DNA of 64,000 nucleotides from Telopea speciosissima (taxonomy: Eukaryota > Streptophyta > Magnoliopsida > Proteales > Proteaceae), in the NCBI RefSeq assembly GCF_018873765.1, contig NC_057921.1:68561557-68625556 (forward strand), written 5' to 3'. The translations under genes and the position numbers were made by a program. Under the pieces are notes generated by a model that did not search any database, was not told the DNA's origin, and saw nothing but the letters and a program-made list of their open reading frames with translations. Position 1 is the first letter of the stretch; every line of letters begins with the position of its first letter. Shown in pieces: positions 16 to 53,908 of the stretch.

Positions 16-3000
16 ATTGTGAAACTCCAATGTATCACCTCCAGTCTTCCGGAGCTCTACCATATGCAGAGTAGGAGCCACTTCAAAAACCTAGAATGGA
101 CATGCAACAAAGTTATGAATAAAGGTATAGTCTTTGTATTTCTACAGAGATTCTATTTCTCACTCGCAGAGTAAAATAATTGACAGGAATAAATTCCAGC
201 CAAAAATGGAAACCATTCTGCCAATACTAGACATGTTCAAACCAAATCTTGTTTATGGGCAAGTATACAAATCACGTATTGGTATGACCAGTGTAATGGT
301 GAAGTGCAACAGCCAAATCTCAGCATGCAGGGACACAATTTTAAAAGCAGGCCTTCAGAAAATAAAACATAGAAGAGATAAATCTATCAATATGGAACTG
401 GTAATGTGAACATTTAAACAATATCTTCCATGTCTTGTCTAATTTTTCAGATTATTATTATACTAAAATGACATAAAATATTGAAGTACCACAAGCTGGT
501 ATACTGAAGAAAATCAGATATGTGAAAAAGGAGTTTCCATTAACAAGGGGAAGTACCTCTGTAGCTACTGAGAGGTGGCCCTTCCTTCCAGTTTTGTCAC
601 CTCGCAACTTCATCTGCAAAGGGTTCAACATAAAGATCGTATCTCAAGTTCAGATTTTGTAGTTGTAAACCTATAACGCTTTTTGGGAATCCTTAACAAA
701 GTAACATGGAAACAAAGAGGTTACCTTGTAGTTTTGCTTGCACACATTAAAACCAAGAGGCTTTGCAGTTTCCTCAATCTTAGACATAATCTCATGTGCA
801 GGGTGCTGAGAGGTAAAGCGTGTCTCTCGCTTCACAAGACCCTAAAATTTGAAGAGGCGGCACCAAACAGAAAAAGTATACATATGGCAACAACATTAGA
901 TTTTACAAATTAGAAAGAAGAAAGGTGCAGAGTTGTTTTGAAAGTCATCTTTGCCACTTGGACACAAGGCAAATGAAGACACTCATACACCATCGCTTGG
1001 GCTCTACAGTAATCAAGGTTTAAAAATTATCTCAGGGGCTCCATGAGCCAAATTGTAAATACACTGCAATGGATTTTATTATTACATGAGATTATAATTT
1101 TAAAAGAGCAATTAAAGACATTCAAACCAAGAATCTGTCACGTTTTTTAAACATACCATCTGCTTCTCAAACAAATTTTCGAGATTGAAGCTTTGTGACC
1201 TAGAAATAAGCTCAAATGCATTCATTGATACAGGTTTCTCTTTCTTTTCAGTTACAAGGTGTTCCTGCAAAAATAAACAAACTCACTCCATGAGGCTCTT
1301 GTTATCATGCTTCAGTTTACAGCTGATTAGAGTGTTAAATCATACCATCATGAGCCAACTAGTTAAGCAAAGGTTTTTCCACATTTGAGTATAATTAAGG
1401 CCCTAGACTGGAGTACTTTCTAAAGTAGGATTTTAGAAATTAGGAAACAGAAGTTTTCCTACTTTAAAAAGTACATTCTGAAAGGATTCTAGGTTGAAAT
1501 ATGATCACTCCTATTTCAAATGTATATATTTTTTACTTTTTGATAGGTAATAATTTCAAATATACTTGCTCACCTGTGAGTCATTAAAAACAGCATCAAC
1601 ATCATCAAGGCTGATATCTTCGCCATGTTCAAAGTCTGGTGGCTTGTACCCTTTCTTGAACCATTCATTTTCCAAGATTTCGGGAATTGTTATCCGCTAA
1701 AACCACAATGAAGTCAACATTTCAGCATCTGATCCCAGAATACAGGATAACATGCTTAAAGCTATTTAAATGTCTACATATCTGTAGTAGAGTACTAACT
1801 ACTAATCAAGTAATTTAAGGTATGGCATGCAGGAGGAAGCAATAATCTGGTGTTGTTTGAACCAATAACTCAGCAGATTTAGTTTACTTACGGTGACAGG
1901 ATTTGGGTCAAGAATACACTTTATCAATTTTTTGGCACCAGATGAAAACCATGAAGGGAATGTGAAATCAGCCTTGTATATCTGCAGTTTGGGTAAGTAG
2001 ATGCACATAAATTGTTTGCGTGAGACTCAGAGGGAAATAAATGGGTGGGGAGTCATAATATAGAAATTTTACTTTTCTATATAAAGCCATGAGGTTTGAC
2101 TCATCAAAAGGCAAGTACCCAGCCATAAGAACAAACAGAATGACCCCGCAAGACCATATATCAGCTGCTGTACCATCATAACCCTTATCATTGAGCACCT
2201 GAGAGAAAAAATTAAGCAAATCCCATAATAATGAATAAAACTGAAAATCTTTTTGCCAAAAAGAAAAGTGTCATCATTCAGCTTGACACTCAGCTCACCA
2301 AAGGATAATGAAGAAAATACATACCTCAGGAGCAACATAATTTGGCGTCCCACATGCAGTATGTAGCAAACCATCATCCTACAATAAATAGAATGTTAAC
2401 AAGAGGCATGTGATATTTTCTTATAAGGCTTCAACATAACTTCAGTTCAGGGAAGACAGGTTTCTTCATGGGAAGCTAGTCACTAGTCGCCACCATATTA
2501 ATGATGGTTGAACTTGAACAGCTCTTATATTGCTCGAAGTGTATTCTGCAGTCTCTGTAAAGATTAACTCTAACAGTTTACACTTATGGTACCTTCTATT
2601 CATTTACATTTTCATTGATGAAACTATGACCCACACTCAATATTATTGTAAAACACATGTATGCAGATTCAATCTCGTACCGTTAGTACCTAAAATCACT
2701 TCAGGTTTGGGCCTTGTGGTAAAGCAGATATGATTTCAAGAAAAAGATTTTCCATACAATTGAAAAATATTAAGCTAAATATAGATGGGAATCAAAACTA
2801 CCTCCATGGGAACTGCTGTGCATCCTTCCCAATTTGCATCCCACAAACAAGCAGGTAGAGAACTAGAGATGATTCTAAGGCATCAGTTATGTGCAAGGTA
2901 TCTGATGTTTTCTGAACCACATGAGTCCTAAACAGAAGCTCTCAGTGCCGCAAGAAATGCCAAGCTATTGATGCATCAAAAACCATGACTGACAGTTACA

Positions 3001-6000
3001 TGATAAAGCCCCACATGTTCCCTTGGTTATGATATTTTTGAGTTCTTTCATAGGTGTTGTTAGTGAGCTCAATATATGGAAGCACCATCCTTTAAGACTG
3101 TTTTACATCCAGTCAACTTTATAGTGCTAAAGAATCTCAGTGAGCATCTGCCAGTGTTGGCTTATTGAACATTCATCAAGAAGGCAATATCTTGTTGACA
3201 ACCCTATTCATTGCGCTAGAAGTGAGTTAGTAATTTACAAAAATACTGCTGGATAATTCTTGTAAAAGAATCCAGCTATTAAAACTAAAACAGATGTTCG
3301 CAAAGAAAACAACACATTGTTGATTAAAACTTGGCCAGGTACCAAATTGGACATATTCCTCAAACTCTTAATACTATGGACTACAGCAATGTGGACAAGA
3401 ACTTACCCTTACTTCTTGTGAAAATGTACTCAATCCAAAGTCTGAAACTTTAAGAATACCACACGAATCAAGTAGCAAATTTTCAGGCTGCCAAACATGA
3501 AAACACATTACATTAATGATGGTGTGCTAGCTGTTATAAGACTTACAGCCAAATAACCGGACTTGCTAGATTACACTCCAACCCAACCCCCCCCCCCCCC
3601 CCAAAAAAAAAACCGGGGAGGGGGGGGTCAGGCAATGTAAGACAGGAAATTAGGAAATTAACGAAGAATTAACTCATGAAAGCTTGAAAAACCTTCAAAT
3701 CTCTATGGTACACGCCTCTACTATGACAGTAATCCACAGCATTAATTAGCTGCTGGAAATATCTCCTAGCTTCATCTTCTTTAAGTCTCCCATGTTTGAC
3801 CTACAAATCAAAGAACTCTTAAGGAAATGTTTCAAAGTCAAAGCTGTAAACATGCATAAACACACAGATCCAATGTAAAAATGCTGAAGCCATGATTTAG
3901 TACACATGCCCCAAACTTTTTTGTAGACAGGCTGGATTTGAAAGAAATCTTGGGGAACCTGGATTTATTCCGATTATGATACTGAATCTCTGCATTGATT
4001 TAAATATCTGACAGAAAACTTATATTCCAGGATCCAGATCTCTGATTTACTATGTTCGACAAGTTCTTTGCATGTGCATATGTGTGAAAACACGAAATCA
4101 GATTGCGCTCCTAATTGTATTAGATCAGAGTATAACAAAATCCACTATAACAGGGGAGTGGCCATTGACAGCACTAGACTTTTTTGTCAAAAAATTCACA
4201 ATTTCATGTTTAACAATTTTATATTAACTCCCTTGGGCCATTGCAATGCAAATTTGAATAACCCCTAGAACATGCATAGTGTTTTGGTTTTGTTACTAAA
4301 ATTGGAGGGAATGGAATAAGTCAAAGAATGGAATACGTCAAAGCATTCTAAATTTCATTTACAAAAGAAGATAACCTTTTAAAAAGTGCATTTGTATTCG
4401 TTAAGTACTGAAAATCTATTAATATACTTTCTAAGTACAATAATTGTCAAAATTCCTAAATAAATGTTCTTTTCTAATTAAATCTCAAATCTCAACCCGA
4501 AGTACCAAACATATCCAAGAATTACTTAAAGACACACACACCTATAATTACTTTTAAATTTTGTCTTCCTAAACCATGGTTGTTTTAAAACATGACTAAT
4601 ACATTGAAATTATTATTAGTGTTTTGGTTTTCTTGTCCTTACCTTGACAATGTTTTTTTAATGCAACTTTCGATTGGGTCAAGGTCAGGCTATATATTTA
4701 GCCCATATTTTGGGGTTAGTTAGGCCCATTGGCTCAGCTTATTTTTGGGTCACATTCTGTCCATATCGGCCAGCATATCTTGGGGGTATTAGCCATCGAC
4801 CAGCCCAAATTGGAGGAAGTAGAATAGAAGATGAAGATTTCTGTTTGAGCTTATTTTGTTAAGCAAATATTTGGTTTCCTATTTAATTTTAGGGCGGATG
4901 TTGGGCACGCTACTAGCTTTCCTGGAGCTATTGGCTCAACCAATTGTGTGGGGAGGGGGGGGCTGGGATGGGAGGGGCGGGGGGGACTTTTCCATGTGGG
5001 GGAGGAGAGGCTGACACAGTGCTGGGCACAGCGCTAGCATGCCTAGCCTTTACCCTTAATTGTAACTGGAATTTAGGAGTATTATTTTATTGGGTTTCTA
5101 AGAGCCCGTTTGGTAACACTTCTGTTTCACGTTTCTGGCGTTTTTCTGTGCCGTACCGTTTGGTATGTCCGGTCTGTTTTTCCGTTTTATAAAAACAGAC
5201 CGGGTAAAAAAAACAACCAAAACACCATTTTGAGAAACAACAAAAACCTTGTTTCTCCATTTTAAAAACGTTTTGAGTGAAACAAAAGAGGGAAAAAAAG
5301 AGAAGTTGTGCCCGATAATTTCAAAGATACCCTAGCTCCAGTGACCAATCTTGTGACATCGTCTTCTCCAACGGTGAGAGTTGTGAGGGTCTTCTCCAAC
5401 GGAACCCTAGTTCTGGCTCTCAACATCATCTTCTCCAAGAAGTTTTTATAACCTGCGAGAGAGACTTTCGCAACCCCAACTACTGAAGGAGGTAAGTGCT
5501 CATCGCCTTCTCTCTTTCTTCTTCTTCTCTTCTTCGTCTGCAACTATGGCCTAACAATGATTCTTCTTCTTTGGTAAAAAACCGTAGAATCATATAGATG
5601 TTCTTCAACGGCAGTTTAATCGCAGTCATCTTTCAATATTCCCTCAAAAGTTCAGACCGAGGAATCCAGTTTGCAACTTCCTAGTCCTGAGTCTTGGCAT
5701 GCGGCACAACCACTAGACACATCGCGGAGAACATCAATAGAATCAAGAAGCTAACCATGGCTGAGTCTACCTGCGACGGTTTGGAACCTCAGGTGAACCG
5801 CTGCTTTCTCTGTCTTTCCATATTCCCAGAAAATTCAGTCATAAGGAAAAGATCTTTGATCTGCTGGTGGATAGGGGAAGGCTTTGTCGATGGCTAGGAT
5901 GCTGAACAGAAAGGAGAGGAATGCTTCAAGAAAATATGTGACAGTGGCCTTGTCGAAGGCGTCCGTGAACAATACAGCAGATCACGTCGTAGCTGCAGCT

Positions 6001-53859: not shown

Positions 53860-53908
53860 AGTCTGAACACAGTTTACCAAAAAAAAAAAAAAAAAGTCTG
53901 AACACAGT
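53860..53908 (+). repeat. Tail-only micro-insert in the 5' leader of the GIF gene
   Basis: AGTCTGAACACAGT stands at 53860-53873 and 53895-53908. Only TTACC and a run of about 16 A lie between them. The second copy ends 18 bases before the start codon, so the insert probably lies in the transcribed leader. Confidence 0.75.

Follow-up and report, generated by a model that had tools for sequence, protein, structure and literature searches.

The window analysed here is a stretch of 64,000 nucleotides (nt) of the waratah Telopea speciosissima (C6:68561557-68625556 of the 823-Mb assembly), and the subject is a class of very short inserts in it, each made up of a few nucleotides and a poly(A) tail between target site duplications (TSDs). 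The first-pass annotation had named ten loci at which a short direct repeat flanks a tiny poly(A) or poly(T) insert, and had reported TTTACC, TTTACCC, or TTTATC (or TTACC) before the tail in at least seven of them. When the strings at these loci were printed and read and their coordinates verified, the order of repeat, short A- or T-rich insert, and repeat was present at 10/10 as claimed. The pre-tail motif (counting TTACC whose first T is common to the duplication) was present at 7/10, namely at 9834, 10508, 14708, 16992, 26816, 53335, and 53858; the loci at 1513, 18318, and 47645 were weak.

The seven motif-bearing inserts lay on both strands. The insert at 9834..9883 (plus strand) had the TSD CAGAGCTTTT, the body CTTTACCC, and a tail of AAAA(TAA)n, with a longer imperfect TSD of 16 and a TSD score of 10.2. 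At 10508..10554 (minus), the TSD was 10 bp long and exact, or 16 bp with one mismatch (AGAGAAATGTATAGGT/AGAGATATGTATAGGT), and the body TTTATC was followed by A10. A 13-bp TSD (AAATGTAAGAATA) enclosed the body TGCTTTTACC and A10 at 14708..14750 (plus), three of the As being common with the TSD, and a 12-bp TSD (ATGTCATAAAGC) enclosed CTTTACC and A12 at 16992..17033 (minus). The insert at 26816..26856 (plus) consisted of ATTTCATTTATC and A7 within a 9-bp TSD, AGTAAGACT, which scored 8.4. At 53335..53383 (plus), a 10-bp TSD (ACCAACACTT) flanked the body GTTTATCAT, A8, and then 12 nt of other sequence, and AT sat between the motif and the A run. The insert at 53858..53908 (plus) had a 16-bp exact TSD, AAAGTCTGAACACAGT, the body (T)TTACC, and A17. 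The 3' TSD copy of this last insert stops 18 nt upstream of an ATG at 53927 that opens the peptide MQQSQQMLPMIPSFPP..., which we take to be GIF-like; the insert probably lies in the 5' untranslated region (UTR) of that gene. As for the weak loci, 1513..1561 (minus) had a 9-bp repeat, ATTTCAAAT, around a 31-nt insert with a longest T run of 6 and no A/T run of 7 or more; neither of the scans described below (exact-repeat or mismatch-tolerant) recovered it. The repeats at 18318..18364 (plus; ATATAGT..AATTTCATT) had an indel between the copies, and the pre-tail was TCAAC without the motif, which leaves this candidate doubtful. The insert at 47645..47703 (minus) was a tail with a different pre-tail, TCTTATTATTTC-A22, and the TSD AGAGGCCCAT (14 with one mismatch).

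To set these structures against randomised sequence, as had been proposed with the original claim, the window was scanned, without guidance by the motif, for inserts of up to 60 nt that contain an A/T run of 7 or more and sit between exact repeats of 9 bp or longer. The scan gave 11 matches in 64 kb versus means of 0.5, 0.6, and 0.8 in Markov simulations of order 1, 3, and 5, respectively (10 each). Eight of the 11 were named loci (10508, 14708, 16992, 18327, 26816, 47645, 53335, and 53858), and the match at 18313 overlapped the locus 18318; those at 15718 and 26538 were off the named list and were judged doubtful. Locus 9834 was absent solely because TAA repeats take over in its tail after A4. 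When the window was searched from the motif instead, words of the form T(T/A)TAYC(C) followed by at least seven As had a nearby duplication in 5/7 cases, with none at 28684 and at 10779 (minus), and of two such words with five As, that at 23392 had no duplication and that at 14583 only an implausible 273-nt match.

The comparison was extended to a 200-kb sample, twenty stretches of 10 kb drawn from ten chromosomes, making 264 kb with the window. A mismatch-tolerant search of both gave 25 rows at 23 distinct positions, versus 0.4 per replicate after swapping flanks among 651 A runs (five replicates). A reversed-sequence control, which gave 12 matches versus 21 observed, was not a clean null because a reversed short insert still fits the search pattern; it was set aside and swapped flanks were used. 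Among 337 A runs of at least seven in the window and sample, TTAYC preceded 7/14 of those with a nearby TSD and 10/323 of those without one (Fisher p = 6e-7); the corresponding fractions were 4/5 and 3/81 in the window alone, and 3/9 and 7/242 in the sample alone. The ten TTAYC runs scored without a TSD include the named locus 26816, which fell below the threshold, and a long LINE (long interspersed nuclear element) copy, L047. The class is thus not confined to the window. It was rarer in the sample, with 7 sites in 200 kb versus 8 in the 64-kb window (A runs of at least 8, 9-bp exact TSD).

The motif expected from the first reading recurred genome-wide. TTTACC-A12 occurred at 1790 sites versus 134 for the reversed pattern, TTTATC-A12 at 544 versus 136, and GTTTACC-A12 at 440 versus 26. 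For closer analysis, we took the first 30 TTTACC-A12 sites, which all lie on C1, with flanks of 1.5 kb, and the first 20 TTTATC-A12 sites with flanks of 110 bases, in each case to either side; as these are the first sites on one chromosome arm and were selected by the motif, whole-genome proportions are uncertain. For the 30 TTTACC-A12 sites, the 99% level of the flank-swap null was a score of 9.2, which 14/30 passed; the null maximum, 35.1, probably came from overlapping loci (L028 and L029, 827 bp apart). At a score of at least 11, there were 12 bodies of 0-22 nt (null 0.2), one of 51-100 nt at an odd duplicated site (L003), and one of 401-800 nt (L013; null 0.2), the remaining length bins up to 1490 nt being empty. 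At a score of at least 13, seven short bodies (null 0.4) and the same two longer ones remained, the short class including L018, whose TSD extends into a TA repeat. Among the TTTATC-A12 sites, 6/20 scored above all 380 swapped pairs (L053, L056, L057, L064, L068, and L070); a seventh, L058, was above the 99% level, as was L065, which is not a clean tail-only insert. The motif-chosen rows scoring at least 10 (n = 23, bodies of up to 22 nt allowed) had bodies of 4-18 nt, median 7, and TSDs of 11 to 26 bp; target duplications were mostly 9-18 bp. At the start of the TSD, where an endonuclease preference for TTTT/AA-like targets would show, A occupied positions 1-3 in 13, 16, and 14 of the 23, but the A tail makes this boundary ambiguous.

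Two further arrangements were seen among these loci. At about position 1500 of L018 (oriented), a tandem structure consisted of AAATCAACTCATTTAT, TTTTACC-A10, the repeat again, TTTACC-A14, and a third repeat copy, as if a single nick site had been used twice. L006 and L008 had a common stretch ending GAYGTGTAATTTACC located 5' of TTTACC-A12, which may mark a further repeat family sharing this terminus.

The window contains one 5'-truncated LINE at 38716..39535 (minus), a 792-bp insert with an RVT_3 domain and the 14-bp TSD GGATCATCTGCAGG. Its 3' end is GTGGAAT-A8, which differs from the motif of the inserts; this LINE is not the donor, in keeping with the earlier view that it was not the obvious one. 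A search for LINEs with the same terminal motif, also proposed at the outset, found a probable donor in a divergent clade of plant L1-type LINEs ending TTTACC-A(n), distinct from the window LINE. The L047 copy (minus, in the sample) is a 1017-bp insert with a 17-bp TSD that ends AATAAAATGACTGTTTACC-A(n), and its frame matches zf-RVT. L014, which was picked through the motif itself, has an open 496-amino-acid frame with zf-RVT and RVT_3 immediately 5' of TTTACC-A16. The last 150 residues of this frame were used as the query in a search of the genome in which the best 150 of 10132 candidates were scored, and the 3' ends of ranks 2-19 (45-71% identity, n = 18) were fetched blind to the motif. TTACC was present in 13/18 of these protein-chosen ends, nine of the 13 having TTTACC; one end, L086, had no A run. 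With L014 and L047 included, the counts were 15/20 for TTACC and 11/20 for TTTACC. Among the matches listed, compared by eye, (G)TTTACC-A12 lay directly 3' of five LINE matches (C1:3352465, C1:26892064, C1:69030185, C1:70550223, and C2:59974453), and on C1 up to 35.95 Mb, the stretch for which all TTTACC-A12 sites were listed, 2/4 LINE matches adjoined it. Of two further LINE copies in the sample, L033 ended in AATAAAGACTTGTTTACC-A5 and L044 in TTGC-A7. One LINE protein of this assembly matches LOC122644075 of Telopea speciosissima at 100% over 93% of its length.

In these LINE ends, AATAR/TATAG with a presumed stop began exactly 18 nt before the tail in 13/20 cases (12/18 of the protein-chosen ones), giving a 3' UTR of 13 nt; in the other readable ends, this distance was 17, 19, 19, 19, 23, and 25. 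In an alignment of 13 ends, all chosen as ending in TTACC so that the invariance of TTACC is by selection, the other invariant columns were the ATA-A of the stop/poly(A)-signal-like ATARA. At this distance from the tail, AATARA may combine a stop codon with an overlapping poly(A) signal. Structure prediction on the 13 aligned ends gave no consensus fold, so a stall at a conserved hairpin just 5' of the hexamer was unsupported. G precedes the hexamer at only 440/1790 TTTACC-A12 sites, and the LINE ends have C, T, A, or G there; a single LINE subfamily as donor was therefore rejected, and several LINE subfamilies probably contribute. The proposal of one untemplated base before every hexamer was weakened by the same variation of the LINE ends. 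The initial argument that a shared motif speaks against random slippage is borne out by the motif-TSD association (7/14 versus 10/323).

The explanation that we propose, with a probability of about 80%, is target-primed reverse transcription (TPRT) of plant L1-type LINE RNAs: synthesis stopped a few nucleotides past the poly(A), integration followed nonetheless, and the inserts are LINE copies with an extreme 5' truncation. The excess over chance, the TSDs, the motif-TSD association, and the LINE clade with an identical 3' terminus support the original suggestion that target-primed retroposition copied no more than the final bases of a donor RNA. Enzymes of the L1 type are established to nick DNA, to start synthesis on poly(A), and frequently to terminate early (PMC12016303, PMC3747384). 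In the case of the waratah inserts, the LINE ribonucleoprotein would nick the target and prime on the poly(A) of the LINE RNA, and the enzyme would copy the tail and the last few nucleotides of an RNA ending UUUACC, the extent being that of the bodies in the 23 best motif-chosen cases. cDNA synthesis would stop soon after the tail, and the short cDNA would be joined and filled in like an ordinary LINE copy, giving the target duplications. The LINEs of the donor clade would have been the templates of the motif-bearing inserts, the same machinery presumably made those with other pre-tails, and we infer that the ultrashort class results from early abortion, in which synthesis starts but does not enter elongation. 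UUUACC may serve as a recognition element, as mRNA cleavage-site context, or as both. We also considered a block by a ribosome stalled at the nearby stop codon, for which there is no evidence; TPRT is nuclear. A stronger version, in which abortive TPRT is among the main results of one LINE clade's activity in this genome, with the stop within a few nucleotides of the body, near the conserved terminal UUUACC, and the product still integrated, is tentative and seems to us somewhat less likely to be right than wrong.

Several observations weigh against this proposal. Some of the 25 rows from the mismatch-tolerant search were local repeats (e.g., window 21343), for which flank swapping does not control. 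In the 337-run set, 7/14 TSD-bearing sites had other pre-tails, of which a few were local repeats; such sites may come from other RNAs, or from chance or local repeats. No TSD was found within 1.5 kb at 16/30 TTTACC-A12 sites; these may represent background, copies of greater age, or LINE copies of greater length, as L014 is. No LINE ending TTTATC was found among the 20 LINE ends read. The extra 5' bases of some inserts (TGA, AAAT, and ATTTTTAATATC) matched no LINE end seen and may be untemplated. Finally, longer bodies were not scarce in the 337-run set: at a score of 11, there were 10 bodies of 0-22 nt (null 0.4) versus 16 of 23-1490 nt (null 3.6), the latter distributed over the bins 23-50, 51-100, 101-200, 201-400, 401-800, and 801-1490 as 3, 1, 2, 1, 3, and 6 (null 0, 0.2, 0, 0, 1.6, and 1.8), and at a score of 13, there were 6 short (null 0) versus 8 longer (null 1.0). 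The 0-22 nt bin was still by far the densest per nucleotide. The longer bodies include the window LINE, the L047 LINE, the L040 foldback (counted on both strands), and others; at least some of them, L040 among these, are not LINE copies. The scarcity of intermediate lengths therefore holds only for the 30 TTTACC-A12 sites.

Among other explanations, the one that fares best, though we consider it improbable, is that each insert copies in full a separate, tiny polyadenylated RNA, such as a LINE RNA decay fragment starting at UUUACC, with the reverse transcriptase reaching the end of its template. The tight body lengths of the 23 motif-chosen rows would fit such an RNA, as would the six top TTTATC sites, each of 7 or 8 nt, and the stray base often found before the hexamer, which resembles end-of-template addition. 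However, bodies of 9, 10, 13, and 18 nt exist, and the base before the hexamer varies among LINE ends too (C, T, A, and G); because they vary at the same position, templating accounts for many of the stray bases. Still less probable is a donor SINE (short interspersed nuclear element) family ending in TTTACC or TTTATC and mobilised with the assistance of a LINE. SINEs often have a 3' end in common with a partner LINE (PMC3747384), and L006 and L008 have a longer upstream stretch in common, GTGTAATTTACC; against this, motif-ending LINEs were found directly, and within the window, to which the search was limited, no Rfam family besides a single tRNA gene reached the gathering threshold. The tail-only inserts also lack a body bearing an RNA polymerase III promoter, 4-18 nt being too short to hold one. 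Chance repeats or poly(A) slippage in AT-rich DNA, which some 9-bp matches do resemble (15718 and 26538), are very improbable, as simulations and swapped flanks yield about 0-1 and slippage would not be expected to give a fixed pre-tail hexamer with exact duplications of 12-17 bp.

The inserts resemble 5'-truncated L1/LINE insertions made by TPRT in their poly(A) tail, their TSDs of mostly 9-18 bp with a start that appears A-rich, and their LINE-type 3' end. They differ in keeping a body of only a few nucleotides, bodies of 0-22 nt standing to those of 23-1490 nt as 12 to 2 at the 30 TTTACC-A12 sites and as 10 to 16 in the unbiased set. For human somatic L1 insertions, a median of 394 bp is reported (PMC12016303). 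The tailless retropseudogenes of therian mammals (PMC5322556) are likewise aberrant short LINE-mediated products with target duplications; in these, the RNA body is kept and the tail lost, whereas the waratah inserts keep the tail and almost no body. In monocot L1-clade LINEs, the 3' terminus is also conserved despite protein divergence (PMC3747384); in contrast, the waratah clade conserves ATARA and TTACC within a 3' UTR of about 13 nt, with no conserved hairpin predicted for the 13 aligned ends. We found no account of a tail-only class of plant LINE insertions in the literature searched, available to us in part, which is weak evidence of novelty.

Other features of the window were recorded alongside. 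A tRNA-Met(CAT) gene of 92 nt, a length sufficient for an intron, lies at 7436-7527. At 10811-11083 and 12156-12428, arms of 95 and 152 nt lie inverted on either side of about 1.1 kb, with 89-92% complementarity; they represent either a foldback element or an inverted duplication. Remains of a DDE_Tnp_4 transposase are located at 25173-25667, and those of a gag_pre-integrs-bearing element, presumably Copia-like, at 41568-42026. A dispersed 140-nt repeat is present at 38593-38732 and 50141-50280; the two copies are oppositely oriented and 82% complementary, and L033 contains part of the repeat as well. At 52850-53284, a 145-bp unit is repeated three times in tandem, the copies being 92-95% alike.

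If the stronger version is true, LINE insertions that repeat masking misses account for perhaps thousands of the short poly(A) tracts in this genome, many of them near genes, and the hexamer is the mark of an initiation or recognition element. The inserts would then give a natural record of LINE reverse transcription failing at its first steps, in numbers sufficient for statistics, and ATARA-N6/7-TTACC-A would be a concrete sequence for testing RNA recognition by plant L1 enzymes. A share of the short poly(A)/poly(T) tracts in plant DNA, which one would readily read as microsatellites, may be insertions that can be dated and used as phylogenetic markers, and should the short class be general among plants, current annotations miss some of the LINE events.

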